Source of the DNA: Carettochelys insculpta
Lineage: Eukaryota > Chordata > Testudines > Carettochelyidae
Assembly (NCBI RefSeq): GCF_033958435.1
Contig: NC_134138.1
Location: 178,110,798-178,174,797, forward strand
Direction: 5' to 3'
DNA: 64,000 bases
The position numbers and the translations under genes were made by a program. The notes below the pieces were generated by a model that was not told the DNA's origin, did not search any database, and saw nothing but the letters and a program-made list of their open reading frames with translations. Below are positions 1,681 through 59,659 of the stretch, one piece after another (the stretch's first letter is position 1; every line of letters starts with the position of its first letter).

Positions 1681-2693
1681 TAATAGTAGATATCTTACCT
1701 TCTGTTTTACCAACAAGTATCTAGCATTGGCCAAATTGCCTTCAAGAGAGTCATCTCAGCAGCAGGAAGCTTTTGTAATATAAAATAAATTAATGTTTCT
1801 TAAAAATTACAGTGAAAGTGGTATTCCTTTCTACAGAGTTTGGATAGGATTAAATTTGACTCCAAGTGGCTTTGAGAATGTTGGGTAGTTCCAAATATTT
1901 AGGTTAACATCAAAATAATATATCACTGTCTTAATTACTTATAAGACATCAGTCAAAACATTACTAAGGTTTAAAAGTGATGCATTCTGAGCTAAAAGGA
2001 ATTAAAAACAAACAAACAGACAATTGGGATGGTAAGTCAGACACAAAAAATGCACACTACCCCAACCTCAACATATGTACACCACACAGAGAACTATTGG
2101 TATGCGAAATCACAAAAGGTTAACAGACTGCATCATTATTTGAACTGTTCCACCTCTCAGAGGACCGCCACAGGTTAGGCTGTCTTCTCTTCAATAAATG
2201 CCCAACTTAACTCTATCCCATAGAGTTTTTGTTTGCTTGCTTGCTTTAAACTGGAACCACCAGCAGTCTGCAAGACATTTCACAGAAGAAGGACCTTCTT
2301 TACTCTATTATTTTTGAGGACAACCAGCTACAGCTGGATAACGTTTGGGGACTGGTGTGTATCCTACTACTTCTCCCTCTTATATACTCCCCTTCACCTT
2401 TCCTAGTACACTCCACCGCACCACCCTGCACCTAGTCTCAGTTCTCCCATTCCAGTTTTTCCATTACTTTTCTCCATACCCTTCCTGTATGTCTTTTTTC
2501 TTCCCACTTTTACCTCTCAAATTCTTTGTTTTTCACCTGGCCCCTCATCCTGAGATCTAGAGAGATCTCCCAGGTGAAAACCAGACGAGTGTGATGCCCT
2601 GTCTCCTCAATCATGTGTTCCAAAATCCATGATGCCCGACTGCTTCCAGCCATATGCAATTTTCTCTATTCCCTTCTCCATGTCATTTCTCTA
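1681..2693. other. Intronic, no feature recognised
   Basis: AT-rich sequence with stops in all frames and no recognisable repeat. The C/T-rich patch at about 2350-2550 gives a short ORF but no domain. Confidence 0.5.
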
Positions 2694-2696
2694 ACT

Positions 2697-3407
2697 AGCC
2701 GTGTCTACATGTGCATGCTACTTCGAAGTAGCGGCACTAACTTCGAAATAGCGCCCGTCATGGCTACACGCATCAGGCGCTATTTCGAAGTTAACTTCGA
2801 CGTTAGGCGGCGAGACGTCAAAGTCGCTAACCCCATGAGGGGATAGGAATAGCGCCCTACTTCGACATTCAACGTCGAAGTAGGGACCGTGTAGTCATTG
2901 CGCGTCCCGCAACTTGGAAATAGCGGGGTCCGCCATGGCGGCCATCAGCTGGGGGGTTGAGAGACGCTCTCTCTCCAGCCCCTGCGGGGCTCTATGGTCA
3001 CCGTGGGCAGCAGCCCTTAGCCCAGGGCTTCTGGCTGCTGCTGCGGCAGCTGGGGATCCATGCTGAAGGCACAGGGTCTGCAACCAGTTGTTGGCTCTGT
3101 GGATCTTGTGTTGTTTAGTGCAACTGTGTCTGGGAGGGGCCCTTTAAGGGAGCGGTTTGCTGTTGAGTCTGCCCTGTGACCCTGTCTGCAGCTGTGCCTG
3201 GCACCCTTATTTCGATGTGTGCTACTTTGGCGTGTAGACATTCCCTCGCAGCGCCTATTTCGATGTGGTGCTGCCCAACGTCGAAGTTGAACATCGACGT
3301 TGCCAGCCCTGGAGGACGTGTGGACGTTATTCATCGAAATAGCCTATTTCGATGTTGCTACATCGAAATAAGCTATTTTGATGTAGGCTTCACGTGTAGA
3401 CGTAGCC
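2697..3407 (-). mobile_element. Harbinger deletion derivative, copy A (711 bp)
   Basis: Starts AGCCGTGTCTACATGTG, ends CACGTGTAGACGTAGCC, and is flanked by ACT at both sides (2694-2696 and 3408-3410), a 3-bp target duplication as expected for PIF/Harbinger. Subterminal regions are full of TTCGAA and TCGAC motifs and form long hairpins. Read on the minus strand, it holds the 5' leader and start codon of a transposase (MDPQLPQQQPEALG at about 3062-3020), then jumps to the far terminus, so the whole catalytic part is missing. Same length as the copy at 8626 but with a different target duplication, so the two are separate insertions. Confidence 0.85.
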
Positions 3408-3854
3408 ACTGTGTCCTGACGCTGATCCAGCAGCAACTCCTGAAGCCAAGGGCAGGTCAGTTTGTATTTTATATGTAGTTGTAATATTACTAGATGAAAT
3501 ATGGTAGTTTTCCATTTCATAAATACTAACTGTACCTTGTACCTCTACATTCCATATCAGCAAGGCCAGCAAAACAAAACTGGAGTTTCAAGGGCAACCT
3601 GTATTATTAATGGTGGGGTTGCCCTAGCAACCAAGTAGGGGATCAGGAATTGTGCTATATACTGAACAAAATGATAAAAAAATACTATTTGTCCAAAGAG
3701 TTTACAGGTTAAGTAGAAAATAGTGTGGGGAGGAGAAAAGAAGTATTCTCCACTGTTTGACAGGAACGGAGAATGGAAGCACACCATCTCACTGAATAAC
3801 CCTCAAAAAGTACTAAAAGTAACTTAGATGCTAAAGTCCTAATTGTAAAAGTGA

Positions 3855-4060
3855 CTTAAAGGCCAGATTTTCCATGGTATTTGGATACCTTACTGACATT
3901 GAACGTACTGGGAGCTAGGTGTCTAAATCTTGCCTCAGATGCTTAGCTGCCTGTACCCTACTATCAAACAGAATTGGGCTCCTAAGTGCCCAAGTCACTG
4001 TTGAAAATGGGATTTAAGATGCTAAATTATTTAGATGTTCTAAAAAATTTTTAAAGAGAA
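3855..4060. repeat. Old interspersed repeat (left part)
   Basis: Contains 'CCAGATTTTCCATGGTATTTGG', 'GGAGCTAGGTGTCTAAAT' and 'GGGCTCCTAAGTGCCCAAGT', recalling a widespread turtle repeat built of AGATTTTCAAAAG and TAGGTGCCTAA words. It appears to continue after an insertion at about 4835-4985. Highly diverged. Class uncertain. Confidence 0.45.
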
Positions 4061-4149
4061 ATTAAATGAATTGTCCATTATCACAGGGGCAGAGGCAGTA
4101 ACTGAATAAAATCCCAGCGGGGTAGCCATGGCATCTTAAAGATGAACAG

Positions 4150-4600
4150 ATTTATTCGGGTACAGTTTGCAACTCTGAAAACTGGCACTCTCCAGTCTAG
4201 CAACATCCCTTGCTTGGCAGAAAAAGGGATGCTGCTGGACCAGAGGGCCTGAGCAGAAGCAGTCCAAGCTGGCCTCCCAGCAGCCCTGTAGGGGACCTGG
4301 GCCAGAGGCAGCTTCCCTTGGCAGCCCTGTGGAGTGCTGATGTCCCCTGGCAGCTCCACAGAGCCAGATTTGGGGTGCTGGCATCCCCTGTCAGCCCCCT
4401 AGGGTGCCAGGGCTGGGGTACTTGGGTGCCTCAGCAGCCATCACCCCCCAGTTTCCCTGCGCTGAGCCAGAGCTGGGATGCCATCTTCCCCTGGCTGCCC
4501 CACAGAAAGCTGGGGACTAGGGAGGAAAGCCTGCTATGGCAGAAAGCTGTGGAAAGCCAGTGGGGGTGGTCACAGATCAAGGGGTGTCACTAACCTCCCA
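4150..4600. repeat. hAT-like element with GC-rich minisatellite interior
   Basis: The left side (GGTACAGTTTGCAACTCTG, then TCCAGTCTAGCAACATCCC) resembles the ends at 5545 and 17260. The interior consists of diverged repeats of 'CAGCCCTGTGGAGTGCTG' and 'GGTGCCAGGGCTGGGG'. It sits inside the old repeat at 3855-4985. The 127-codon ORF here is a product of this base composition. Confidence 0.4.
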
Positions 4601-4834
4601 TTTCAGCAAATCTCTCATTTGGGACCACTGAGGTCTCAAGGGTGGCCTACCAGGAACATGGAACCTGTATGAGCGTTATGTACGTAAAACTCACTTCGTC
4701 AGATGCACTTCAATCAACTGAGTTGCAATGAATCAAGTCTCCTGAGTCACAACTCAGCCTCTTGGCCCTAAAACCTTCTTTGTACATATTTTTCATAATT
4801 TTGTAGTATGGCTACTTTAAAAAGCACCTACACT

Positions 4835-8625: not shown

Positions 8626-9336
8626 AGCCGTGTCTACACGTGCACACTACTTCGAAGTAGCGGCACTAACTTCGAAATAGCGCCCGTCACGGCTACACGC
8701 GTCGGGCGCTATTTCGAAGTTAACTTCGACGTTAGGCGGCGAGACGTCGAAGTCGCTATCCTCATCAGGAGATGGGGATAGCGCCCTACTTCAACGTTCA
8801 ATGTCGAAGTAGGGACCGTGTAGTCATTGCGCATCTTGCAACTTCGAAATAGTGGGGTCCGCCATGGCGGCCATCAGCTGAGGGGTTGAGAGACGCTCTC
8901 TCTCCAGCCCCTGCGGGGCTCTATGGTCACCGTGGGCAGCAGCCCTTAGCCCAGGGCTTCTGGCTGCTGCTGCTGCAGCTGGGGATCCATGCTGAAGGCA
9001 CAGGGTCTGCAACCAGTTGTCGGCTCTGTGGATCTTGTGTTGTTTAGTGCAACTGTGTCTGGGAGGGGCCCTTTAAGGGAGCGGCTTGCTGTTGAGTCCG
9101 CCCTGTGACCCTGTCTGCAGCTGTGCCTGGCACCCTTATTTCGACGTGTCCTACTTTGGCGTGTAGACGTTCCCTCGCAGCGCCTATTTCGATGTGGTGC
9201 TGCGCAACGTCGAAGTTGAACATCGACGTTGCCAGCCCTGGAGGACGTGTAGACGTTATTCATCGAAATAGCCTATTTCAATGTTGCTACATCGAAATAA
9301 GCTACTTCGATGTAGGCTTCACGTGTAGACGTAGCC
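8626..9336 (-). mobile_element. Harbinger deletion derivative, copy B (711 bp)
   Basis: Near-identical to copy A, with the same orientation and length. Starts AGCCGTGTCTACACGTG, ends CACGTGTAGACGTAGCC, flanked by TAG on both sides (8623-8625 and 9337-9339). CpG sites are better preserved than in copy A. Near the left end, AACTTCGAAATAGCGCCCG pairs with CGGGCGCTATTTCGAAGTT to make a 19-bp perfect stem. The minus strand keeps the transposase start MDPQLQQQQPEALG and lacks the catalytic core. Confidence 0.87.
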
Positions 9337-9727
9337 TAGATCACACATGAGGGCATTCTTCTTGGTCCCAGCCTACTGAATGATTATATAGACAGGCTGT
9401 ATCTACACTATGAGATAAAATTGATATATAATAAATTCAATTTCAATATTATGAATTTAAATAAAGTGCCCACAAACCTTTTTGAAATTCATCCCATATT
9501 TTCTCCATGTCAAATCTCTGCATCCCCATTGCTCTGTGCAAGTTCGACAGTGTGAGCTCTGCATTGTGGATACCTATCCCACAGTGCCTTAGCCCTGGTT
9601 ATTTGTGGGTGTTTCATGGTGGAATCCCAGAATTCCAAGCAGTGTTCCAGAACTCACTGCATTACTAACCATGTGAAAAAAGAACTGGTGATCGCGCCAT
9701 TTCCTACTGCAGCATTCCAGTGCAAGC

Positions 9728-11011
9728 ATGGATCCACGAATGCTCCAACACATAGCACAGATTATTTCGGCAACCACAGCATCTGTCACACAATTTGTCC
9801 TTCAGTTCCAAAGCTCAGTGATGCTTGTCTATTCTACTGATGCCACTGCTGCTGCTGCTGCTGATGACTATGATGAGGATGGTGTTTTGGAACAGAAGTT
9901 GTGCCAACTGTGGTCCAAGAATGCAGAGCTGGCGGCTGCCATGAATGCCTGGATGACAGCGAAGCGGCATGTTTGGACTTGAGAGACCAGCACATATTGG
10001 TGGGAATCACATCGTTTTGGAGTCCTGGGATGATCAGCAGTGGGTACAGAATTTTTGCCTTTGCAAGTCCACCTTTATGGAACTTTGTGATGCACTGGCA
10101 CCCACTCTGAAATGCAGCAACACCAAAATGAGGCCAGCTTTAACACTACAGAAGCAAGTGGCAATTGCACTGTGGAAGTTCACAACCCCTGGCAGTTACT
10201 GGTCAGTGGCAAATCAGTTTGGGGTAGGCAGATCTACAGTTGGGTCTGTGGTTATGGAAGTGGCCCATGCAATCTGTTGGCATCTCCTGAAGAAGACTGT
10301 GACCCTGGGAGATGTACAGGCCATAATGCATGGCTTTGCTGCCCAGGGCTTCCTAACGCTGATGGAGCAATAGATGGCATGCACATCCCTATCATGGCCC
10401 CAGACCATGGCCTCTGAGTATATTAAGCAAAAGGGGTACTGCTCCACGTTCGTGCAGGGGTTGGTAGATCACAAAGGTCGTTTTACCAACATCAACTTTG
10501 GCTGGTCAGGGAGGGTTCACGATGCACGCATATTGCAAAATTTGGGACTGTACCAAAAGCTCCTGGATGGGACTTTCTTCCGTGATTGGAAAATCAAGAT
10601 TGGAGATGCTCATTGTTGTGTTGGGTGACCCTGCTTACCCTCTGCTTCCCTCTCTGATGAAACTCCTACACAGGCACCCCGGACCCCAACAAGGAAAACT
10701 TTAATCACAGACTCAGCAGGCGCAGAATGATTGTGGAATGCATCTTTGGATGTTTGAAAGCAAGGTTTAGATGTTTATTGACCCATTTGGACATTTCTGA
10801 AGCTAATGTCCACACTGTTACTACAGCGTGCACTATTTTGCACAACATATGTGTATCGAGGCAAGAGACTTTCCCATCTATCTGGAATTCTGAAGCAGAG
10901 GCAATAGGCAGGGCTTACTCCCAGCTGTCTACACTGCCAACCACCAGTACCCACGCTCAGGCTGCAGCAATAAGAGATGCTTTACAAAACAGCTTTTTGA
11001 CTGACCTGTAA
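9728..11011 (+). pseudogene. Harbinger DDE transposase, decayed
   Basis: A DDE_Tnp_4/HARBI1-type transposase that would cut and join the element's ends in the nucleus. It starts MDPRMLQH, followed by a poly-Ala stretch coded by a GCT run and an acidic patch, then the helix-turn-helix region (RPALTLQKQVAIALWK, NQFGVGRSTVG). The catalytic core shows GAIDGMHIPI (first Asp), GWSGRVHDARIL (second Asp) and RRRMIVECIFGCLKARF (Glu). It is broken: TGA at about 9979 where the family has an Arg codon, a frameshift just after it, a 1-nt loss near 10352, a 1-nt gain near 10405 and frameshifts near 10620 and 10705. Unlike the copies in elements 2 and 3, there is no intron after the MEV motif near 10263. 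Stop at 11009-11011. Confidence 0.88.
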
Positions 11012-11048
11012 TGCACATGGTACCTATGTATGTCTCCACCATAATGCC

Positions 11049-11054
11049 AATAAA
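11049..11054 (+). terminator. Polyadenylation signal of element 1 transposase
   Basis: AATAAA 38 nt after the transposase stop codon, followed by a T-rich/GT-rich stretch. Placement fits the 3' end of the transposase transcript. Confidence 0.6.
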
Positions 11055-11322
11055 TCAACTGTGCTGTAATGAATGAATGCTCTTTTTTGGTGGGAGGGGG
11101 TTAAGTTGCAGTAAACAGAATGTGCTGTGCCTTTAGCGCTGCCCCCTGCCCCCCCCCCGCAACCTGCCCCGTCCTCTCAGTGCGTCTGCTGCAAACAAGA
11201 CACAGCCCAGCTGTGCTTTCAGTGGCACTAACTCTCCCCGCACCCACTCGTTTTGATTTGTGTCCCCCACACCCCCAGCGCTCCTGAAGGACAAGAAACC
11301 ACACTGAGGTCAAAGGAATGAT

Positions 11323-11328
11323 TTTATT
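11323..11328 (-). terminator. Polyadenylation signal of Myb-like gene
   Basis: AATAAA on the minus strand, just inside the stop of the Myb-like tail exon. It faces the transposase signal at 11049 with about 270 bp between. Confidence 0.55.
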
Positions 11329-12404
11329 CGGCGGGGAGGAGAGTTTAAGTGGCTGGGAAACAACACCCTCTCAAGGGTGCTTGCATAGCCTTTTGCAGTG
11401 TGCTTTGCCATGGCCTCATTCACCTTTGACAATTGCTGCTGCTGCAGGTCAAGCATTCTGCCATTAAAGTTTACTTGACTCTGACAGCTGTACTGTGACA
11501 CCACTGAGCAGTGTCCTTTGCCAAGTTCCTCTGCTCTGCCTGAGTGTCTTGCATGTGCTGCAGGATCAGATCTTGTTTGCATTTCCTGTGTCTCCTGGTT
11601 TTCTGTGCAACACTGGTCACTGGGTCTGGAAAATGAAGGTCAAAATTGAGACACAATTGACATAATGTGCTTTGAAGCATAATGAATGGATCTTGCTGTG
11701 TACTACCACTGAAAGTATACATTTGAAAGACACATGGGTTATTAAGGGTGGGACAGTAAAGGTGCATTTCACAGTACCTTATTTGCCATCACTTATCCAG
11801 GATGTTGCTTTGTGGACTGGTAAGTGATAAACAATTGTCCTCTTTTGGCGGGAATGGGAAAGTCTGAAAAGCAGGGGCAGCCACCAAGTGTCCTGGCTGG
11901 GTGTCCTGTGGCAGTGACAAATGGACAGCTGCATGTGGGGCTTCCATGCACAATATAAATAATGAAAAGAAAACAAAAATATCCAAAGAAAGGCTGGATG
12001 TAAAGGGACAGGGGAGAGGAAAATCACAGCAGAGGAATCCCCTTGCTTGGCACAGTGGGATTCCTGAGAACTGAAAACAAATGGTGCCTGGTAAGGGATA
12101 TGGGAGGGGAAACACCCAGCAGAACCTAGCAGCTGTGTGGCACCTGGGAGTCCTGCAAAATCAACAGAAATGCTGGAGAAATGGAAATGTCCCTCAGAGC
12201 CTGGCAGCAGCATGGCACGGGGGGTGGTGTCATGAAAAATGAAAATAAATATTTGTTGGAAAGGGACAGGTGGGGGTGGGGAGGAGCCTAGAACTTGCAA
12301 ACCACGCTGTGGGGTGGGGAATGGAATGCCTGCTGGCTGCTGCAGGCTGGTGTAAAGGGGCAGAAAGCATGTTAAAAAAACAAACAAACCAGATGTGAAT
12401 TCCC

Positions 12405-12720
12405 ATGCTGCCTCAGGTGGCGAAAGACGACATCACCCTCCTAAAACTAACAGATATGGAGAAAGAACGTCTACTCCTGCTGTGTGACCAAAAGCCTGGA
12501 AAATTTGCTAAAATGGTGTGCAGTGCCCTGACACCAGATCATTATCTGGTTGCCTGGAGCGGCAAGGTGTGCTACTGTGGAAGCTGCAACAAGTCAGGCC
12601 TGCCCAAGAATCTTATGAAAAAAAATACAAGAGTGCCTGGATGAGATCTCCGAAAAGGAGAAGCACTCCATCCCCAGAAACATTAACACACTGTTCTGTG
12701 GAGCAGAGAAGCACAGCTAG
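12405..12720 (+). pseudogene. Third ORF of Harbinger element 1, possible BEN-like domain, one frameshift
   Basis: Starting at ATG 12405, a 105-codon reading (LTDMEKERLLLLCDQK, KFAKMVCSALTPDHYL, SGLPKNLMKKIQECLDEI) ends at TAG 12718-12720, if one base is removed from an 8-A run at about 12616-12623; uncorrected, the frame stops at 12644. The composition is protein-like, with an amphipathic helix, a Cys-rich CYCGSC patch and a C-terminal helix. The layout (K(F/L)...L(F/T)...L...G...LP..L...I) recalls BEN domains, but the similarity is weak and judged by eye. It lies antisense to the Myb-like intron. I see no counterpart in elements 2 or 3. It could instead be an exon captured from the host. Confidence 0.4.
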
Positions 12721-13859
12721 GAAACCTGTACCTGTGCAAAACCCTACAGCTATACCCACCCCCAAACTGATTCTAGCATGCAGAATAGAGACTCACCTAA
12801 ACCACTTGATCCAGAGGGCTCAGAGACTGGTGTGGAGGTAACTGGCATGAAAGGGACTGACATGGAGGGTCACGGTGTGGAGGGGACCACCATGGAGGGT
12901 ACTGGTTCCAGGTCGATGGTGAAGAGCTCCAGGCTGCCCAGAACAACTTCCTCTGTCCCCTGCTCATTGGTCCTTTCCTCCTCTTCATTGCTCTCTTCCT
13001 CTGGGCCATGCTGCTTCGCTGTTCTCACCCTGGAATCCATACCAGGGCCTCCACAATTATCATAATTCAGTCCAGACTCCATAAGCATGTGGAGATGTTG
13101 ATAATAGCGTCAGGTCCGTGGAGCCATCCCTGACCGCTGGTTGGCTTTCTGGACTTTTTGATAGGCCTGATGGAGTACTTTAACCTTCACCCAGCACTGC
13201 ACAGAGTCCCAGGAGTAGCCTTGGACTGCCAGCTCATGCACCATCTGATCATAGACTGCCATGTTTCTCTTGGCCACCCGAAGTCTCTTCACCACTGATT
13301 GGTTTCCCCAAATGGCAATGAGATCCAGAATCTCCTGGTGGGTCCAAGCTGGGGCTCTCCTGCAAGCCTGAGAAGTGCTAGCCAGATCACTACCCTGAGT
13401 GCTCATGATTGCAGTGCAAGGCTACCGATAATTGCTACCGATGTGGTACGATGCGATGGGCAAAGGGATTTTTTTCATAACGAATGCCCTTTTTATTTGC
13501 AGGTTTGGGCTGCTAAATTCTAATTCAAATTTTAATTCAAATTCAATCCAAACTTTGCAGGCTTAGTTTGATCTTCTTCCTGAACACCAGACAGCAAGGT
13601 CACCATGTAGCTTTGTGGGATACCTAATGGGACACTTCTGGAGGCTAACAAATTCGAATTAAGGACATGGTGCTTCCACACTAGCCTTTATACGAGATTC
13701 TGAATTCAAGATAGACACTATATCCCTCCTAGAATGTTGATATTCTGTAATCAGCATTATGGCTCAATAGATTGCGTTAACAATATTACATATGAAGACG
13801 GTCATGTTTTAATATCGAGTTAAAGCCTTGAAATTCAAATTTATCTTGAAGATGCGGCC

Positions 13860-14395
13860 TTAGGGTCTCACTCTTATTCAAAGAGCCAGACACTGAAAAT
13901 TGTTAAAGAAATTATAATAATCAATAAAAAGGATTTTTAAATGGGGCTGAAATTTGATTAAAATTAACTGACTCTCAGAGATGTTGTAGCCATGTTCATG
14001 CATTGTTGAGATTTACTGGATTACTTTATGTAACTACATTATTTCAGTTTCTGATTAGCAGTCACATCGTCTAGAAAGTATAGTTCTAGAGTTCCTGTCA
14101 ATCAGATGTTGGTCCTATAGTGGTCCTATCACCACTATAGATGAGCAATATTCACAAAGGTTTACCTGGAATGTTTTATTGCATACGCTGATATTAGGAA
14201 AAACCAGACCACAAACTCTGCTATAGGATTTATAATTTCCACATATCCATATGGCACTGGCAGATACCTATACAAAGATGAGGTGTTCTGAAGCAATATT
14301 TCATTTCTATCTCCATTAGTTTGTATTTCTTTATAGTACACAGCCAGATTGACACTGAAATCAACATATGCTTATACACAGGGCTCACAGGGCTT
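13860..14395. other. Intronic, nothing recognised
   Basis: AT-rich DNA between Harbinger element 1 and a short tandem repeat. No coding or repeat signal identified. Confidence 0.5.
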
Positions 14396-14980: not shown

Positions 14981-16024
14981 AGAATCATAGAATCATAGAA
15001 GAGTAGGACTGGAAGGGACCTCGAGAGGCCATCGAGTCCAGCCCCCTGCCCTCATGGCAGGACCAAGCACTTTCTAGACCATCCCTGAAAGCCATCTATC
15101 TAACCTCATCTTAAATATCTCCAGTGATGGAGATTCTACCACATCCCTTGGCAATTCATTCCAGTGTTTGATCACCCTGAAAGTTAGGAACTTTCTCCTA
15201 ATGTCCAACCTGAACCTCCCCTGCTGCAATTTAAGTCCATTTCCTCTTGTTCTATCCTCAGAGGCACGGAAGAACAAGTTCCCTCCCTCTGCCTTATGAT
15301 ACCCTTTTAGATACCTGAAAACTGCTATCATGTCCCCCCTCAATCTTCTCTTTTCCAAACTCAACAAACCCAATTCTTTCAGCCTTTCTTCATAGGTCAT
15401 GTTCTCTAGACCTTTGATCATTCTCGTTGCTCTCCTCTGGACCCTCTCCAATTTCTCCACATCCTTCCTGAACTGCGGTGCCCAGAACTGGACACAATAC
15501 TCCAGCTGAGGCCTAACCAGTGCAGAGTAGAGCGGAAGAATGACTTCTCGTGTTTTGTTCACAACACACCTGTTAATGCATCCTAGAATCATGTTTGCTT
15601 TTTTTGCAACAGCATCACACTGTTGACTCATATTTAGCTTGTGGTCCACTATAACCCCCAGATCCCTTTCTGCTGTACTCATTCCTAGGCAGTCCTTTCC
15701 CATTCTGTATGTGTGACACTGATTGTTTCTTCCTAAGTGGAGCACTTTGCATTTGTCCTTATTAAACTTCATCCTGTTTACCTCAGCCCATTTCTCCAGT
15801 TTATCCAGATCCTTTTGAATTATGACCCTATCCTCCAAAGAAGTTGCAATCCCTCCCAGCTTGGTATCATCTGCAAACTTAATAAGTGTACTTTCTATGT
15901 CAATATCTAAATCGTTAATGAAGATATTGAACAGAACCAGTCCTAAAACAGACCCCTGCGTAACCCCACTAGTTATACTTTTCCAGCAGGACTGAAAACC
16001 ATTAATAATTATCACTGACAACAA
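14981..16024 (-). mobile_element. CR1 LINE, 5'-truncated, 3' end intact
   Basis: Minus-strand CR1 ending in the characteristic tail (TTCTATGATTCTATGATTCT on minus, at 14981-15000) after a short 3' UTR containing the CR1 'GGTCCTGCCATGAGGGCAGG' block. The insertion is cut at about 16024 within the reverse-transcriptase region, as is usual for target-primed retrotransposition. The coding part has no stop. Confidence 0.93.
15074..16024 (-). CDS. CR1 reverse transcriptase, C-terminal 316 codons, uninterrupted
   Basis: Carboxy half of CR1 ORF2. GVTQGSVLGLVLFNIFINDL (residues about 20-39) is the palm motif before the catalytic FADDTKLG at residues 50-57. The thumb and C-terminal region follow (LERDLGVIVDHKL-like stretch; YCVQFWAPQF; RLRGDMIAVFRYLKG; FFRASEDRTRGN; HWNELPRDVVESPSLEIFK). 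It ends WLSGMV and stop at 15074-15076. The ATG at 16024 is only where the truncation falls, not a real start; complete CR1 ORF2 is about 900-1000 residues. One oddity is Leu where the family usually has Pro in GSVLGP. The open frame across 950 bp suggests a young insertion. No promoter is expected to be present. Confidence 0.9.
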   Translation of the reverse strand: MLSVIIINGFQSCWKSITSGVTQGSVLGLVLFNIFINDLDIDIESTLIKFADDTKLGGIATSLEDRVIIQKDLDKLEKWAEVNRMKFNKDKCKVLHLGRNNQCHTYRMGKDCLGMSTAERDLGVIVDHKLNMSQQCDAVAKKANMILGCINRCVVNKTREVILPLYSALVRPQLEYCVQFWAPQFRKDVEKLERVQRRATRMIKGLENMTYEERLKELGLLSLEKRRLRGDMIAVFRYLKGYHKAEGGNLFFRASEDRTRGNGLKLQQGRFRLDIRRKFLTFRVIKHWNELPRDVVESPSLEIFKMRLDRWLSGMV

Positions 16025-19976: not shown

Positions 19977-22300
19977 ATGGAGTAACAGCAGCTCGACACC
20001 CTGCTGGCTGCCACCACTGGAGTGGCACTGTGCTGGCCTCAGCACTGGTGGCCACCCTGAAGCTCCTAGCAGGGTCCTCCCCAGACCAAGGGGGTCCTCC
20101 AGGCCTGCCCCCACTGGCACTCCTCCAGCTCTGGAATTACCCCACAAGGTCCGAGTGGTGGGAGAGACTGGTCATGGGGGAGTGGGATGATAACCGCTGG
20201 CTCTGGAATTTCTGGATGTGGTGGCAGACCTTGCTGGAGCTCTGCCAGTAGTAGTCCCTGGGCCTAAGACACTACGACACCTGCATGCAGCGTACCCTCC
20301 CTGTGGAGAAGAAGGTCATGATAGCTCTCTGGAAGCTGGCCACTCCAGACAGCTACTGCTCCATGGGACACTAATTTGGTGTGGGCAAGACCACAGTTGG
20401 GGCCATTGTGATGGAGGTAAGGAGGCCTGGGCACGCATCTACCAGGGGTGGGAGGCCCAGAGGGGCCAGGATGGGGCCTGGAGTTGGGCCAAGGTGGGGT
20501 CAGGGTCACCCCACACACCTTCACAAGTGACTGTCCCCCCCGCCAGTGGTCTGCATTCTTAATGCCATGCTCCTCCAGAGGGTCGTCCACATCGGGAACC
20601 TGGACGTGGCCATCATGGGCTTTGCCACACTGGGGTTCCGAAGTTGATTCAGGGCTCTCAGCCGGACCCACATACCTGTCTGTGCTCCGGAACATGGCAG
20701 AGGACAATTCATAAACAAGAAGGGCTACATGCCGTGGTCCTGCAGGCCATGGTGGACAGCAGGGACCAGTTCCAGGACATCTGTGTGGGCTGGTGTAGCC
20801 AGACATGAACCCCCCCATTTGGCCTTTTCTTCTTCTCCCCTCCACTGGGAGAGAGAGAGAGAGAAACAAGCAGGGGAGACAGGTAGCTTTTGATGTCCTG
20901 GTAACACAGGTGTGCTGTCTCGCTCAGCCTCTCTACTATACACAAAAAACAGACAGTGAATGGGCTAGCTAATGGCCGCCCTTCTGGCTGATCTCGGTGA
21001 TTGACATGCCTGATCACTTCCCCAGCAAGAACGGGGAACCCCCGCCCATCACCTCCAAAGGTGCCCAATTGTCCACAATTCACAGGTGCAAATTGAGCCT
21101 TGCACCTTCCCTGGGAAACCTGGGTTCAAAACACATTCCTCCCGATTGGCCACTTGAGACCAGGAAGAAGCCTCCGTGACAAAAGGGGTATAAAGGGGTT
21201 TGGCAGCCCACCCCCCTTTGAGTTTCAATCACCTACACCTGCTGGCCAGGTCTGGAATTAACTCCCGAGACTGGGGACGCCTGGTTCGTATCTACTTCTT
21301 CCCGAGGGATTGAGAGAGATTCTGGGTCACGCTGGATCTAGGAGGCAGGGGTAAGAATTACACCTGTATTACACTTCTTTCCTATAGGAATTGAGGGAAA
21401 GACTCTGGTTCCACCAGGTCTAAGAGGCAGGGGTGAAAATCACACCTATAACTTGCCTTTCTTGTGTACACATTAATTGTATTAGTTTAAGCTAGCTAGT
21501 TGGTCTAAAACTTTTCTTAAGTTAAATTGTGTTGTTTCCCCTCTAAAAACCACGACTACTAACTTGTACTTTAATCATTTATCTTAGTTAAATTGTTTCT
21601 ATCTTTGTATAAATAAAAAGTAACTGTTAAAGCCTCTCTAAGTGTAATTTTCCTCTTGCTGCTGTACCCAAACTAAACACAAACCAAAGAACCCAGCCTG
21701 CCCTGGCTGCTTAGCGTAGCTGCTGGTGTGGCATCACTCCCTTTGCCCCACCAGACCCTTAGCTGGCACCTGGGCATCGGCTCACAGCTGTCCTGGCTGT
21801 ACACATGACATGCGGGTCTTCTGGAACTCAGGCCTGTGCTGCCAGCTGGAGGCAGGGACCTACATCCCCCAAAGGGAGATCTCGCTGGGGAACACTAATG
21901 TGCCCCTCTGCCTGGTGGTTGATGTGAAATACCAGTTCCAGCCCTGGCTCATGTGGCCCCATACCCCATGCCACGCCCCCGCCAGCCAGAAGCGCTTCAA
22001 CAGCCAGCTCAACCATGCCTGCCAGGTGGTTGAGCACCCCTTAGGCCACTTGAAGGGGCATTAGTGCTGTCTCTTCACTCTCCTGGATGTGGGCATCCTG
22101 CTGCACACTCCACAATATCATGGAAAGCAAGGGAGAGGCTTTGTGCAGGAGTGGGTGGTCAAGGCCGGCACAGGCTACCCCAGCCAGGGTACCCGCTTCA
22201 ACCAGGGGCCCCAGTGAGTGCTGCCATGGCCACCCCCAGCAGGCCTCTCGCACTGCCCCCACCCTCCCTTACACTGCCTCCTCACCGAGCACACTCTGCA
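19977..22300 (+). pseudogene. Harbinger DDE transposase of element 2, decayed and LTR-interrupted
   Basis: Same family as the transposase at 9728. ATG 19977 is followed by Glu and an immediate TAA (19983-19985). Downstream come WWERLVMGEWDDNRWLWNF, TLPVEKKVMIALWKLATPDS and FGVGKTTVGAIVMEV. After MEV the sequence GTAAGG (about 20417) begins an apparent intron that ends CCGCCAG before 20547, where coding resumes (CILNAMLLQRVVHIGNLDVA, IMGFATLGF). The catalytic block is damaged: the first Asp region reads SRTHIPVCAPEHG, the second survives as GCTHDMRVFWNSGL after the LTR, and the Glu region continues to 22060 and beyond (VVEHPLGHLKGH). Many stops and frameshifts. Confidence 0.82.
20794..21786 (+). 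mobile_element. Solo LTR (993 bp) inserted in element 2 transposase
   Basis: Starts TGTAGCC and ends CTCACA (TG...CA with matching TGT/ACA tips). Flanks GCTGG (20789-20793) and GCTGT (21787-21791) form a near-perfect 5-bp duplication, and removing the LTR plus one flank restores the transposase reading GWPGCTHDMRVF. Inside are a TATA-like GTATAAAGG at about 21188, two related blocks with 'GAGAGATTCTGG' / 'GGAAAGACTCTGG' (about 21310 and 21395), and an AATAAA near 21611. No internal retroviral genes, so recombination has left one LTR. Endogenous retrovirus type not assigned. Confidence 0.75.
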
Positions 22301-22315
22301 CAGAGTTTTTGAAAG

Positions 22316-22321
22316 AATAAA
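22316..22321 (+). terminator. Polyadenylation signal of element 2 transposase
   Basis: AATAAA shortly after the decayed end of the transposase and before the convergent Myb-like gene. Confidence 0.5.
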
Positions 22322-22415
22322 CGGGTGTATTCTTAATTACAAAAACTGCGTGGGTAATACTTCTTGCTAAACAAAACAGAAAGTCCAACTATTTACAGAA
22401 GTGGGGGCTAACTAT

Positions 22416-23860
22416 TTACACGGGGGTGGGGGACCCAGGTGGCCCACCCGGTGGGCCATCACTCAGCAGCAGGAGTGGAGGGCCGTGACCCAAGCCCACC
22501 CTGGGTCCCCCACCATCATCCAGGATCCTCGGTGGGGCTGGGAGTAGGTGGGGAGTACAGGGAGGTAGAGACGGGGCACAACCTTGGGCCAGCGGGTGGG
22601 GCCATGGGGGGAGAGACAGCAGGGAGGACAGCAGGTGGGTGGGGGAGGGGGCAGCCAGGCCTGGAGCTCCTGGTAGGTGACCACCATGTCCCTGAAGGTG
22701 GTCAGGAACTACCCCCAGCCGCCCAGCACCAAGCGGCTCCCCCTCCTCAAAGTGGAGCCGGCACTCGACCAGCTCCATCTGGTGCTGGATGTAGGCAGTG
22801 ACTTGGGGGTTCTCCGCTGGTTGGGTCCACTTTGACTGGGCTCGTCCTGGCGCTGGTGGTGGCTCCTGCCAGTTGCTGTCCCTCACCTCCTGGGGGCTTT
22901 CTGGGACCATGGATGGGGCAAGGTTCTCCCAGCCCTTGGATGGTGCAGCTGTGGAAAACAGGGGGGAAGAGAGGAACAGGCCATGAATACCAACCCCTGC
23001 CCCATGGCCCACATCCCCTGTTCATGGGTGTGGTGGCCCTGTGGGTATCCCCTTTGTGCAGTCCGCCTGCCTCCCCTTCCCCCTGGGGGCAAGGCATGGA
23101 GCTGTCCACGGGATGGGGGGGGCTGATGGGCATTGGTGGTCATGCTGCTATCCCGGGGCTGGGGCCTGGCTAGGCCCTGATGTGCTGGGGTCTACCAGGG
23201 GTGTGAGGGGCCCCCAGTCATGTATGGTTCCCCCACCCCATGATCCGGGGTGTGTGCCCTGTTGTGTACGTACCTGAGCGTCCTCCGCCAAGGTTGGGGG
23301 ATGGCCATCTGGCTGATGCCAGGCTGGAGATATGGGAGGGGAGCTCAGTAACCAGGTCCCCCTCCTTGCTGGACCAGTCTCCAGCTGAGGCTGGCTCCGT
23401 CTCCAGCCCTGGTGGTGCAGGGCTGGCCAACAGTCTCAGCTCCTGCTCCTCTCCTGGCTGGGGCTCCTCGGCTGAGGGGTCCAGGAGGGCTGGCTGGGAG
23501 GAGGTGTCCCAGGGGCCCAGGATGGTCCTGAGTTCCCTGTGATAAGGGCAGCAAGCAGGGGCAGCCCTCTACAGGCTGGTTGAGTCCCGAGCCTGGGCAC
23601 AATCCTGCCACTGCTCCTTAACCTTACTCCTGACCTGGTCAGGAGTGCAGGCAGGGTGACCCCAGGCAGTCAGACCCTCGGCCAGCTGGGTGAAGGTGTA
23701 CATGTTCTGCCACTTGCTCCACCTTAACCCAGAGCGCCGCCGCCTCCTCCTCCTCCTCCCAGAGCCCCAGCAGGTCCTAGAGTTTGTGCTTGGTCCAGGA
23801 AGGGGTGTGCTTTTCCTCCTCCGGCTGAACACTTAGGAGCCCTGGACATGCTCGGAGAGG
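22416..23860 (-). pseudogene. Myb/SANT-like protein of element 2, decayed
   Basis: On minus from about 23860 the frames together read TPSWTKHKL-stop-DLLGLWEEEEE, then after a frameshift WSKWQNMYTFTQLAEGL and CTPDQVRSKVKEQWQDCAQA, aligning with the Myb-like domain at 13406-13110 (WTHQEILDLIAIW; WVKVKVLHQAY). The stop TAG replaces an Arg seen in relatives, and a GAG/GCG run makes a long Glu/Gly tract in other frames. A tail region near 22720-22830 (PQVTAYIQHQMELVECRL) resembles the coiled-coil tail exon of the family. Not functional. Confidence 0.7.
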
Positions 23861-56339: not shown

Positions 56340-57780
56340 AGCTCAGCAAAGCACTCTACTGGCCCCATGGCCAGCTTTCAGGACCCCTGTGCCCCTCAGG
56401 AGCCCCCCACTGACCCACCAGAGGGAGCCCTAGAGGCCATCCAGAGGCTGAAGAAGGCCCCTTCCTGAAGTGAGGAGGAGATGAGAGACTTGATGGGACT
56501 ATGGGAGGACAAGGATGTCCTCTGTCACACCAGTAGCTGGCACCAGAATGCTGCAGACTTCATCTGGCTGTCAGTGGGACTCAGGACCCAGCCTTCCTCT
56601 CCCTCCCCACCCCCCCCCCACCCCCACATGGTCAACCAGGTTCAGTCAAAGATAAAAGAGCTGCAGCAGGCACATACCTGGGCCCGGGATGTGGCCAGCC
56701 GTTTAGGGGCAGGGGGAAGCATCCACCAGCTGGCCCCACTACAAAGCCCTCAATTGGCTACTGGGGCTGAAGGATGCAGCTGAGCTGAAGGCTGTGCTGG
56801 ACATAGCGGTGCCCAAGGTGGAGCCCCAGCTGGTGCCTGACAACCAGCCAGGAGCCGCAGCCAGGACCCAGGACCAGGAAATAAAGATGTCCTTGGACAA
56901 GAAGGGGATCCTGGTCATGGCCATACCCTCCATCTCCTCAAGCCAGGCCCCTTCCACCTGGGCCACCCTTAAAGTCCTCGAGGGACCCTCAGGTAGGTAA
57001 GCAGTGATCCAGACACCCCAGGATGGGGTGAGACCACTTGGCACAGCCAGGAGTGGGCCAGTCTCATGGCCACCAGCCCATACTGACATATCTCAGGCAG
57101 CAGCAGCCCATGAATGGCACTCAGCGCCCCCTGCTGTAGACAGCACCACAACCTGAAAGCCTGGGGACAGGTACTGGAAGGGGGACGGACATCACCTGGT
57201 GCATGGCCCACCCATGTGGGGACCTCCAGGTGCCCAGGATCTGCCAGGGCCCCCAGGCGATTAAAGGGGGGCTGGCCAGAAGGGGTGGGAGGCACAGTCC
57301 CCATGGCCAGATAACTGGGCTGATGGGTTGCCCCATCTCCTCTTCTGTCTCCACAGCACCACCATCTGAGGGCTAGGCAAGACCTGTTCAAGGCTAGGGG
57401 AGCCCCCACTCCCAAGTGCCAAAGGGGTCGTGGCACCACTACCCCTGCCACCTTGGTGGGCCTGCTCCCAGAGGCTCTGCCACTGCTGCCAGAGGCGGGA
57501 GAAAGAGGAGGAGAAGGAGGCACCTCACAGACTGCTGCCATCCAGGAGCAGACCACTGTGCTTTGGCGGTAGCTGGAGCTGGAGGAGGCAGACAGGGTAG
57601 CATTGGGTGATCTGGGGTGACCATGGCCCTCTGGGCTCTCACCCAGGCTGTCATCCAGCACCCGCACCCGCCACCACCCCCCATCACCACACCTGCTGAT
57701 CCCCCTGATGCCTCCCCTACTACATCCCCTCCTCTCCCACCCCCACCCTTGCTGCCCCTGACCTCGCTGTCTTGATCCCA
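56340..57780 (+). pseudogene. Myb/SANT-like protein of element 3, decayed
   Basis: The plus-strand reading has CCTTCC-TGA-AGTGAGGAGG, i.e. a stop in place of the first conserved Trp (PS-W-SEEEMRDL), then EEEMRDLMGLWEDKDVL, HQNAADFIWLSVGL and VNQVQSKIKELQQAHTWARD, matching the domain at 13406-13110. A splice-like CCACAG at about 57352 precedes a second coding-like stretch (QTAAIQEQTTVLWR, LELEEADRVAL) resembling the family's coiled-coil tail. The long minus-strand ORF across 56969-57781 is its shadow. Confidence 0.7.
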
Positions 57781-58153
57781 ATTAACCTTCCTCAAGCTGT
57801 CCTGCTGGAACTGGCACAGCTCATTGTGTCTAGAGCACGCCAAGCCTGGCTGAATCCCTCCACCTGCCCAGCCCAGGCTGCTGAGCCCATGGACACAGCG
57901 CCCCCACCACACACTTATCTCCCCATGGTCCCAGGCCCATCCCAGCCCTGCCAGAGACCCTGGACCTCGGGCAGTAGGGGCTCCAACAGCTGGTGTGGCT
58001 CACAGCCCCCCACCACTGTGGAATACTGAGGCTCCCCACCCTCTCCCACCTCCAGGTTCAGGTGCCCCCACCACCACACTGTACATAGTTCCCCATTCAA
58101 CCCCCTCGTTCGTATTGTTGTTCAGAAAAGGTTCATTTTTCAGAGTTAACATG

Positions 58154-58159
58154 TTTATT
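58154..58159 (-). terminator. Polyadenylation signal of element 3 transposase
   Basis: AATAAA on minus about 160 nt after the last transposase stop at 58320. Confidence 0.5.
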
Positions 58160-58319
58160 TACAAACAACCCCGAGTCCTGTGATCATTAGAGGAGGTGTG
58201 AGGGGCAGTGGCAGGGCATGTGTGATGGGGTCGAGGTGGAGGGTGCCTGGGGGTCATTGGGTCATCCTGGTGAAGGCTGCCCTGAGGGCCTCCTTGATCT
58301 GCACCCCATCCCAGTGCAC

Positions 58320-59659
58320 CTAACAGCATGGGCCATGGAATGGCTGCTCATATCTGGCCACAGCCTCAGCAACCCACCCCTGCAGGAATTGCTTGTGCTT
58401 GCTTTCCACAATATTGTGGAGAGCGCAGCATGCCCCCACCACTGTGGGCACATTCTGGAGGGTGACCTCTATCCACATGAGGAGGCACTGAAAGCACCCC
58501 TTCAAGCAGCTGAAGGCCCGTTCCACCATGCCCCAGGCCCGCTTAAGGCACTCATTTAACTGCTCCTTGGTGGGGTCAGTTTGTCCCAAGAGGACCACAT
58601 GAGCCACAGGTGCAGTGGGCAGGTGGCATTGGCCACAATGTGGAGGGTCATGATGGTGTCGCCAGGGAGGAGGTCCCACAGAGGGGCCTAGGTCCCCTCC
58701 TGCATCCTGTGGCTGACCCAGGAGTTGTGGAAAATACAGGTGTCATGGACTTGCCCGGACCATCCCTTGCAGACATCCATGAACCAGCTCTGGGCATCCA
58801 TGACAGCCTGGAGTACCACAGAGTGGTACCCCTTTCTATTGCTATATTGCCCTGTGTTGTGGTCTGGGGCCTGGATGGGAATATGGGTCCAATCCAGGGC
58901 CCCTGAGCAGTTGGAGAAGCCCAGGCTAGCAAATCCCTCAATGCTGGTGTCAAGGTCCCTGACTCGGATGACCCCCCACAGGAGGATGGCTTGGTCGACC
59001 TGCATGGAATGGAGGGCATGCATATAGTGAGTGCATGTCACGGTATCCCAGAGTCCCCTGTCCCTGGCTCCTGTCCCCCATGCCCCTCCCGGGTCTTTCC
59101 CCTGCTGCCTTCAGGGCCCCTGCCCATGACAGTCCCCTTTTCCCAGGAGCCCTGCCTCCTCCCCTTGTGGTGGGTGTGTGGCCTGAGCATCATTTGTCTC
59201 CAGGAGGATGGCCCCAATGGTGGCTTTGCGCACCCTAAACTGGTGGCTAACTGAGTGGTGGCTGTCTGGGTTGGCCAGCTTCCATGTGGCTGTTGCAACC
59301 CCTTTGTCCTGAGGGAGCACGGGCGGCATCCACGTGTCCTGTTACTGAAGGGCAGGGGCCAGCCAGTGGCATAGCTAGAGGAATGTCTTCTTCCTCATCT
59401 GGAGGTTCTGAAGCCACCGCTTGTTATCCCATTCAAGCATCACCACCCAGTCCCACCACTACGCACTGGTGGGGTAGCCCCACAAGCACCAGATGGCAGG
59501 GGGGATGGGGTGCAGATGGTGCCCTGTGGCAAAGTCCTGCAGGACTGGGGTGGTGGGGTCAGCCACCAGAGAAGGTAGAGAATGGCATTTGATGATCGTG
59601 GTCAGCAGTCTGACCCAGTCATTAGTGGCATCTCTTCTGGGGACCTGAATGGGATCCAT
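58320..59659 (-). pseudogene. Harbinger DDE transposase of element 3, decayed
   Basis: Starts MDPIQVPR at 59659, sharing the MDP start with the other copies. Helix-turn-helix pieces are GVATATWKLANPDSHHS and FRVRKATIGAILLE. After LLE the expected intron donor GT reads AC (ACAAAT), so splicing would fail. Coding resumes near 59030 (MHALHSMQVDQAILL, DLDTSIEGFASLGFSNCSGA). The first catalytic Asp is LDWTHIPIQAPDH, the second GWSGQVHDTCIF and the Glu MVERAFSCLKGCF, followed by VVGACCALHNIVES. Stops and frameshifts are frequent, but all three catalytic acids are still visible. Confidence 0.83.

Follow-up and report, generated by a model that had tools for sequence, protein, structure and literature searches.

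A putative third gene nested antisense in the Myb-like intron of a PIF/Harbinger transposon family of the turtle Carettochelys insculpta

From a comparison of copies across the genome, we conclude that the family of Harbinger element 1, which lies in the 64-kb stretch of turtle DNA analysed here (the window), carries a third, apparently two-exon gene (ORF3), placed antisense in the intron of its Myb-like gene and predicted to encode a basic protein of ~98 residues. The frame at 12405–12720 is very probably a decayed coding exon of this gene. The three-gene Harbinger lineage proposed in a first-pass annotation of the window is supported by the presence of the exon in most copies sampled through the Myb-like gene, by a frame left open in the consensuses of two subfamilies (A and B), by a codon pattern indicative of constraint and by the surrounding gene structure. 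The case is one of sequence comparison, and ORF3 is without a homologue of known function.

Element 1 is a PIF/Harbinger element by its transposase on the plus strand (DDE_Tnp_4, Pfam, E = 3.4e-08 and 3.2e-11) and its Myb-like protein on the minus strand (Myb_DNA-bind_4, Pfam, E = 2.1e-12). It also resembles PIF/Harbinger in the convergent orientation of these two genes. Its ends may do so too: family TIRs are present in copies, some of which show a TTA-like target site (in copy L026, TTA flanks both sides); a clear target site duplication was found neither in the window copy nor in several other copies. The left end of the element was reached by alignment in 16 of 20 long-flank copies, and right ends fell at ~13846–13863. 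On the minus strand, the Myb-like intron begins with the donor AGGTGAGT, which closes the exon at ~12797, and finishes with the acceptor TTTTCCAG, the next exon starting from ~11625. Coordinates of the features are collected in Table 1.

Table 1. Harbinger element 1, its genes and other Harbinger-like remnants, in window coordinates
Feature	Position	Strand	Remarks
Harbinger element 1	9395..13859	.	TIR of the family: GGCTGCATCTACACTATGAG...; window copy lacks a clear TSD
Transposase gene, broken in window copy	9728..11011	+	DDE_Tnp_4 at 10374-10628 and 10661-11011
Last exon of Myb-like gene (approximate limits), broken in window copy	11330..11625	-	Sequence and family consensus frame
Myb-like gene intron, with putative third gene on opposite strand	11626..12796	-	Read from sequence
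End of proposed leader exon	11810..11819	+	Family ...GTGGACATG; window copy GTGGACTG
Proposed splice donor GTAAGT	11820..11825	+	GT kept in 13/14 copies
Predicted splice acceptor	12414..12416	+	CAG in 40/63 A; TAG in 40/52 B
Predicted ORF3 coding exon	12417..12699	+	Window copy: one additional A in 12618-12625, 12 exon nt missing, TGT at family stop
Predicted poly(A) signal of third gene	12784..12789	+	AATAGA in window copy; AATAAA in 16/21 copies
Myb-like gene exon 1, broken in window copy	12797..13409	-	Myb_DNA-bind_4; splice site read from sequence
Other Harbinger-like remnants	21795-23812 and 56442-58867		Transposase pieces, weak Myb-like matches

Several further observations were made in and around the element. 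At ~11396–11400, which is within or next to the last Myb exon, many other copies carry some 185–330 nt extra that are absent from the window copy. The part of the Myb intron at ~11990–12360 looks by eye to be made of degenerate ~80-nt repeats, Tandem Repeats Finder reporting none. Directly left of element 1 lies a short element (8632–9330) with ~30-nt inverted ends and with relatives at 3072–3407 and 26338–25985; judged by eye, the ends of this short element (..GTCTACACGTG..) are similar to the Harbinger TIR, and it may represent a non-autonomous relative. A reverse-transcriptase-like protein tail (RKDVEKLERVQRRATRMIKGL...), presumably CR1-like, occupies ~15250–15469 on the minus strand.

The plus-strand frame described in the first-pass annotation at 12405–12720, antisense to the Myb-like intron and broken by an extra A in an A8 run, was found in the sequence in all these respects. 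From stop to stop it spans 12399–12644 (81 aa), and past the A8 run the next frame continues up to a TAG at 12718–12720. Its limits needed correction, however, as the conserved coding part starts at the 12417 acceptor and not near 12405, and the family stop (12697–12699 in the window) comes earlier. Openness and composition within the window were set aside as coding evidence, having given no usable signal. Open frames of 81 codons occurred in 97% of 300 simulated introns, and frames of 104 codons, tolerating a single frameshift, in 99.7%; a longer one of 217 codons is present on the other strand of the same intron. By amino-acid composition the ORF3 stretch ranked 89 or 90 of 235 in the window. 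Its codon score of 13.9 bits was the best of six frames and per codon similar to that of the Myb exon (transposase pieces scored below zero), and fell outside the 40 best stretches of the 64-kb window. Since frames of such length are expected in such introns, the window-copy frame alone is no better than chance, and what support the predicted ORF3 has beyond chance comes from other genomic copies.

These copies were sought in the 2.18-Gb Carettochelys insculpta assembly. With the exon DNA as a query, the best 40 of 1784 first-look candidates were scored, and the exon was embedded between flanking element sequence in 20/20 long-flank copies, a sample chosen by the exon itself. A second sample was obtained via Myb exon 1, with 39 other copies scored out of 1355 candidates. 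Fourteen of the 39 had an opposite-strand exon match already among those listed by the exon DNA and protein searches; from the remaining 25, a segment of 501 nt was fetched at the expected place, and 19 of these contained the exon (at least 284 of 294 nt in 15 copies, partial in four). In total, the ORF3 exon was present in 33/39 Myb-sampled copies, antisense to Myb and in one fixed place, an outcome which speaks against the segment being absent from most copies. Deletion, interruption or displacement of the exon may account for the other six. Across genome searches, the family gave 1784 to 4771 first-look candidates. A weak ORF3 match outside the family was seen (L028, E = 0.018). No ORF3 match was found in the two other Harbinger-like remnants of the window, suggesting that the third gene may be lineage-specific. 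It may also derive from a captured host exon, the other origin raised in the first-pass annotation; matches to transposon copies saturated the genome searches.

An alignment of 120 exons (the window copy, the 39 best by DNA and 80 from protein matches, half picked for low identity) comprised 63 exons of subfamily A, 52 of subfamily B and five of mixed type. Eighty-two were free of premature stops in the alignment frame, and the family stop was kept in 106. Nine of the first 40 copies were uninterrupted, one of these through a double frameshift. The first-pass annotation had envisaged that a consensus of related copies might contain stops in this frame; none was found in the exon consensus of either subfamily.

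The copies show the exon to be surrounded by a conserved predicted acceptor, a plausible conserved upstream donor with ATG as the last codon before it, and a downstream poly(A) signal. The acceptor triplet corresponds to codon 8 of the longer frame, and long runs identical between A and B start there. That A has CAG and B has TAG at this codon fits an acceptor, because TAG would end the frame whereas both triplets work as YAG. The TAG in subfamily B was also the reason for setting aside the ATG of MQIP, kept in 33/40 copies, as a start. Upstream, in a scan of three consensus pieces, no plus-strand donor outscored GACATG followed by GTAAGT (score 6.4), and subfamily B shares this consensus. Over TTGTGGACATGGTAA, A and B are identical in consensus, their surroundings differing by about a quarter. 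Among copies in which the stretch could be located, ATGGTAAG was exact in 15/19 A and 6/12 B; no match to the stretch was obtained in 2/21 A and 8/20 B copies. As a second identical 15-nt run exists in the intron, the run in the donor region is by itself no proof. The AATAAA signal is located ~85 nt downstream of the family stop. Splicing would join GACATG, the leader end, to GTTGCCAAAG, the exon start. Transcription from a promoter of its own would thereby give a two-exon ORF3 transcript, consisting of a 5′ leader ending in ATG and a further 97 codons, and the putative product would be a basic protein of 98 residues (M + VAKEDITLL...NTLF, pI 9.2).

In a database of 5.8 billion proteins, a profile built from eight uninterrupted copies matched one turtle protein model, uncharacterized protein LOC142009716 isoform X2 of Carettochelys insculpta (P0002), a public gene model over one decayed copy, with no named function. 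Here, transposase residues are joined straight to VAKDDITLL, exactly at the predicted ORF3 acceptor; the model contains the beginning of the exon and departs from the family sequence after TPDRYL. Based on this model, some copies may produce a transposase-ORF3 fusion. A reading of the exon as an alternative terminal exon for the transposase, with such a fusion as the product and no separate protein, would agree both with this junction and with the transposase being on the same strand as ORF3. It appears improbable nonetheless, given that the public model represents one decayed copy and that the transposase consensus is without a strong conserved donor, the best scoring 4.3, with a T preserved in 57% of copies, and 1.4, compared to 6.4 for the donor preceded by ATG. 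We therefore prefer a separate gene with a leader exon of its own.

Comparison of the A and B consensuses (15 and 19 region-spanning copies, respectively) shows an exon which is sharply bounded and whose differences between A and B look like those of a protein under constraint. Only 18/302 ungapped exon sites differ, with zero gap columns, versus 199/621 sites, with many gap columns, in the intron pieces and 3′ flank (p = 4e-21 for exon against noncoding; differences per piece 39/157, 37/126, 68/133, 45/159 and 10/46). Elsewhere, 47/162 sites differ in a piece of Myb exon 2 and 4/22 in the acceptor stretch. Enlarged A and B sets gave 20 exon differences, six of them CpG-like. In this comparison of A with B, which is one single comparison, the 14 non-CpG differences were distributed over codon positions 3/1/2 as 11/3/0 and eight were synonymous (permutation p = 0.001 for position 3, 0.004 for position 2 and 0.005 for synonymous changes); the p values were weaker when all 20 differences, including CpG-like ones, were used (0.004, 0.023 and 0.033, respectively). 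The synonymous to nonsynonymous ratio was 8:6 between A and B against 46:140 for private changes (p = 0.024). Private changes outside CpG comprised 46 synonymous, 131 nonsynonymous and nine stop changes and resemble neutral decay, as expected since the copies are dead. Variants present in at least 12 of the 120 copies were at position 3 in 13/20 cases, yet synonymous in 6/20.

Low divergence might also be displayed by a conserved noncoding or regulatory stretch, or by a module exchanged between subfamilies, that does not encode a protein. Fourfold sites are likewise slower than the intron (5/38 versus 199/621, p = 0.017), and part of the low exon divergence may consequently come from, for example, exchange between elements. 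We nevertheless regard an explanation of this kind as highly improbable in view of the distribution over codon positions given above, the lower rate of differences at zero-fold (6/190) than at fourfold (5/38) sites (p = 0.021), the lack of gaps, and an open frame with a preserved stop in A and B alike. That the intron contains by chance an open stretch which was never coding is hardly credible: length and composition are indeed ordinary for the window, and the intron consensus is also open for 187, 143, 110 and 108 codons, but all copy-based results contradict it, barring an artefact in the A/B exon alignment.

With a constrained third gene as the preferred reading, the identity of its product was considered. 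The first-pass annotation had likened the layout of the frame to BEN domains, and this is suggestive only. Relative to BEN proteins, above all a gene of the turtle genome with four BEN domains, ORF3 displays a weak co-linear likeness (GKFAxxL...P...G-CNK..L). We take this four-BEN gene to be BEND3 from its layout. Comparison with shuffled sequences gave a weakly positive outcome. Nearly all shuffles scored below the three ORF3 consensuses on a 13-sequence BEN profile: out of 3000 shuffles per consensus, 7 reached the score for A, 0 for B and 31 for mixed, compared with 206 to 424 for each of four control proteins. With the four BEN repeats of the four-BEN gene alone as the profile, the corresponding numbers were 37, 50 and 534 of 3000 (A, B and mixed; controls 245 to 1251). 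On a 4-sequence BEN profile, the window copy was mid-range, its score being reached by 1097 of 1759 reported shuffles. In local alignments, ORF3 scored above shuffles with two of 13 BEN domains, both in the four-BEN gene (p = 0.004 and 0.007), with p = 0.175 for the sum over all 13.

Pfam, PDB and hhalign lent no support to a BEN identity. Profile searches returned no hit, with no Pfam match at E ≤ 10 for the window copy or either consensus and probabilities of 0.1, 1.3 and 6% in hhalign comparisons to BEN sets. A PF10523 search of the genome yielded nine places (23 candidates scored), none reported in the ORF3 family. Searching PDB by sequence gave nothing for the window copy and, for the family profile, only weak unrelated matches (best E = 0.42). 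There was no match to ORF3 in NCBIfam or among viral contigs and bacterial contigs, and no Rfam match in the 64-kb window. The window copy had no match in the database of 5.8 billion proteins either; a transposase-piece control was also without a match, suggesting that this database holds few such vertebrate proteins. AlphaFold2 models were not usable (mean pLDDT of 46 for one sequence and 43 for eight copies). On this evidence, a BEN identity for the ORF3 protein is possible but doubtful.

As to function, the least certain part of our interpretation, we tentatively picture ORF3 as a small nuclear DNA-binding accessory factor, possibly BEN-like, which would act with the transposase and the Myb-like protein at the element ends or would regulate the element. 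The antisense position within the Myb intron would couple transcription of ORF3 to that of the Myb gene. A fuller scenario, in which a Harbinger lineage gained a diverged BEND3-like BEN DNA-binding gene that was nested antisense, acquired its own ATG-ending leader and spread as a working part of transposition or anti-silencing, seems rather unlikely as a whole.

Vertebrate Harbingers are described, in a teleost study, as two-gene elements in which both genes are needed to move, the teleost PIF/Harbinger elements themselves being two-ORF elements (PMC9179366). Most candidate autonomous PIF/Harbinger elements likewise have two ORFs according to a survey of 380 PHIS families (PMC4482050). The element-1 family differs in having a third, apparently constrained exon with its own predicted splice sites inside the Myb intron; this extra exon breaks the rule of two genes only, and the family is best classed as a variant of PIF/Harbinger, still a member. 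In the related superfamily ISL2EU, the transposase is accompanied by a YqaJ protein, that is, by a different second gene (PMC9179366). In contrast, ORF3 is added to the Myb gene rather than replacing it, and it showed no YqaJ match in Pfam. Among the literature matches listed, which did not extend to subscription papers or Repbase, none described a third Harbinger gene; this does not prove that the gene is unpublished.

A constrained third gene would imply a different way, in this family, of managing some step of mobility or of host escape. ORF3 would be the protein to add to, or omit from, a standard transposition assay. The family may also offer a clean example of a gene gained antisense within an intron of another transposon gene, visible only through many dead copies.
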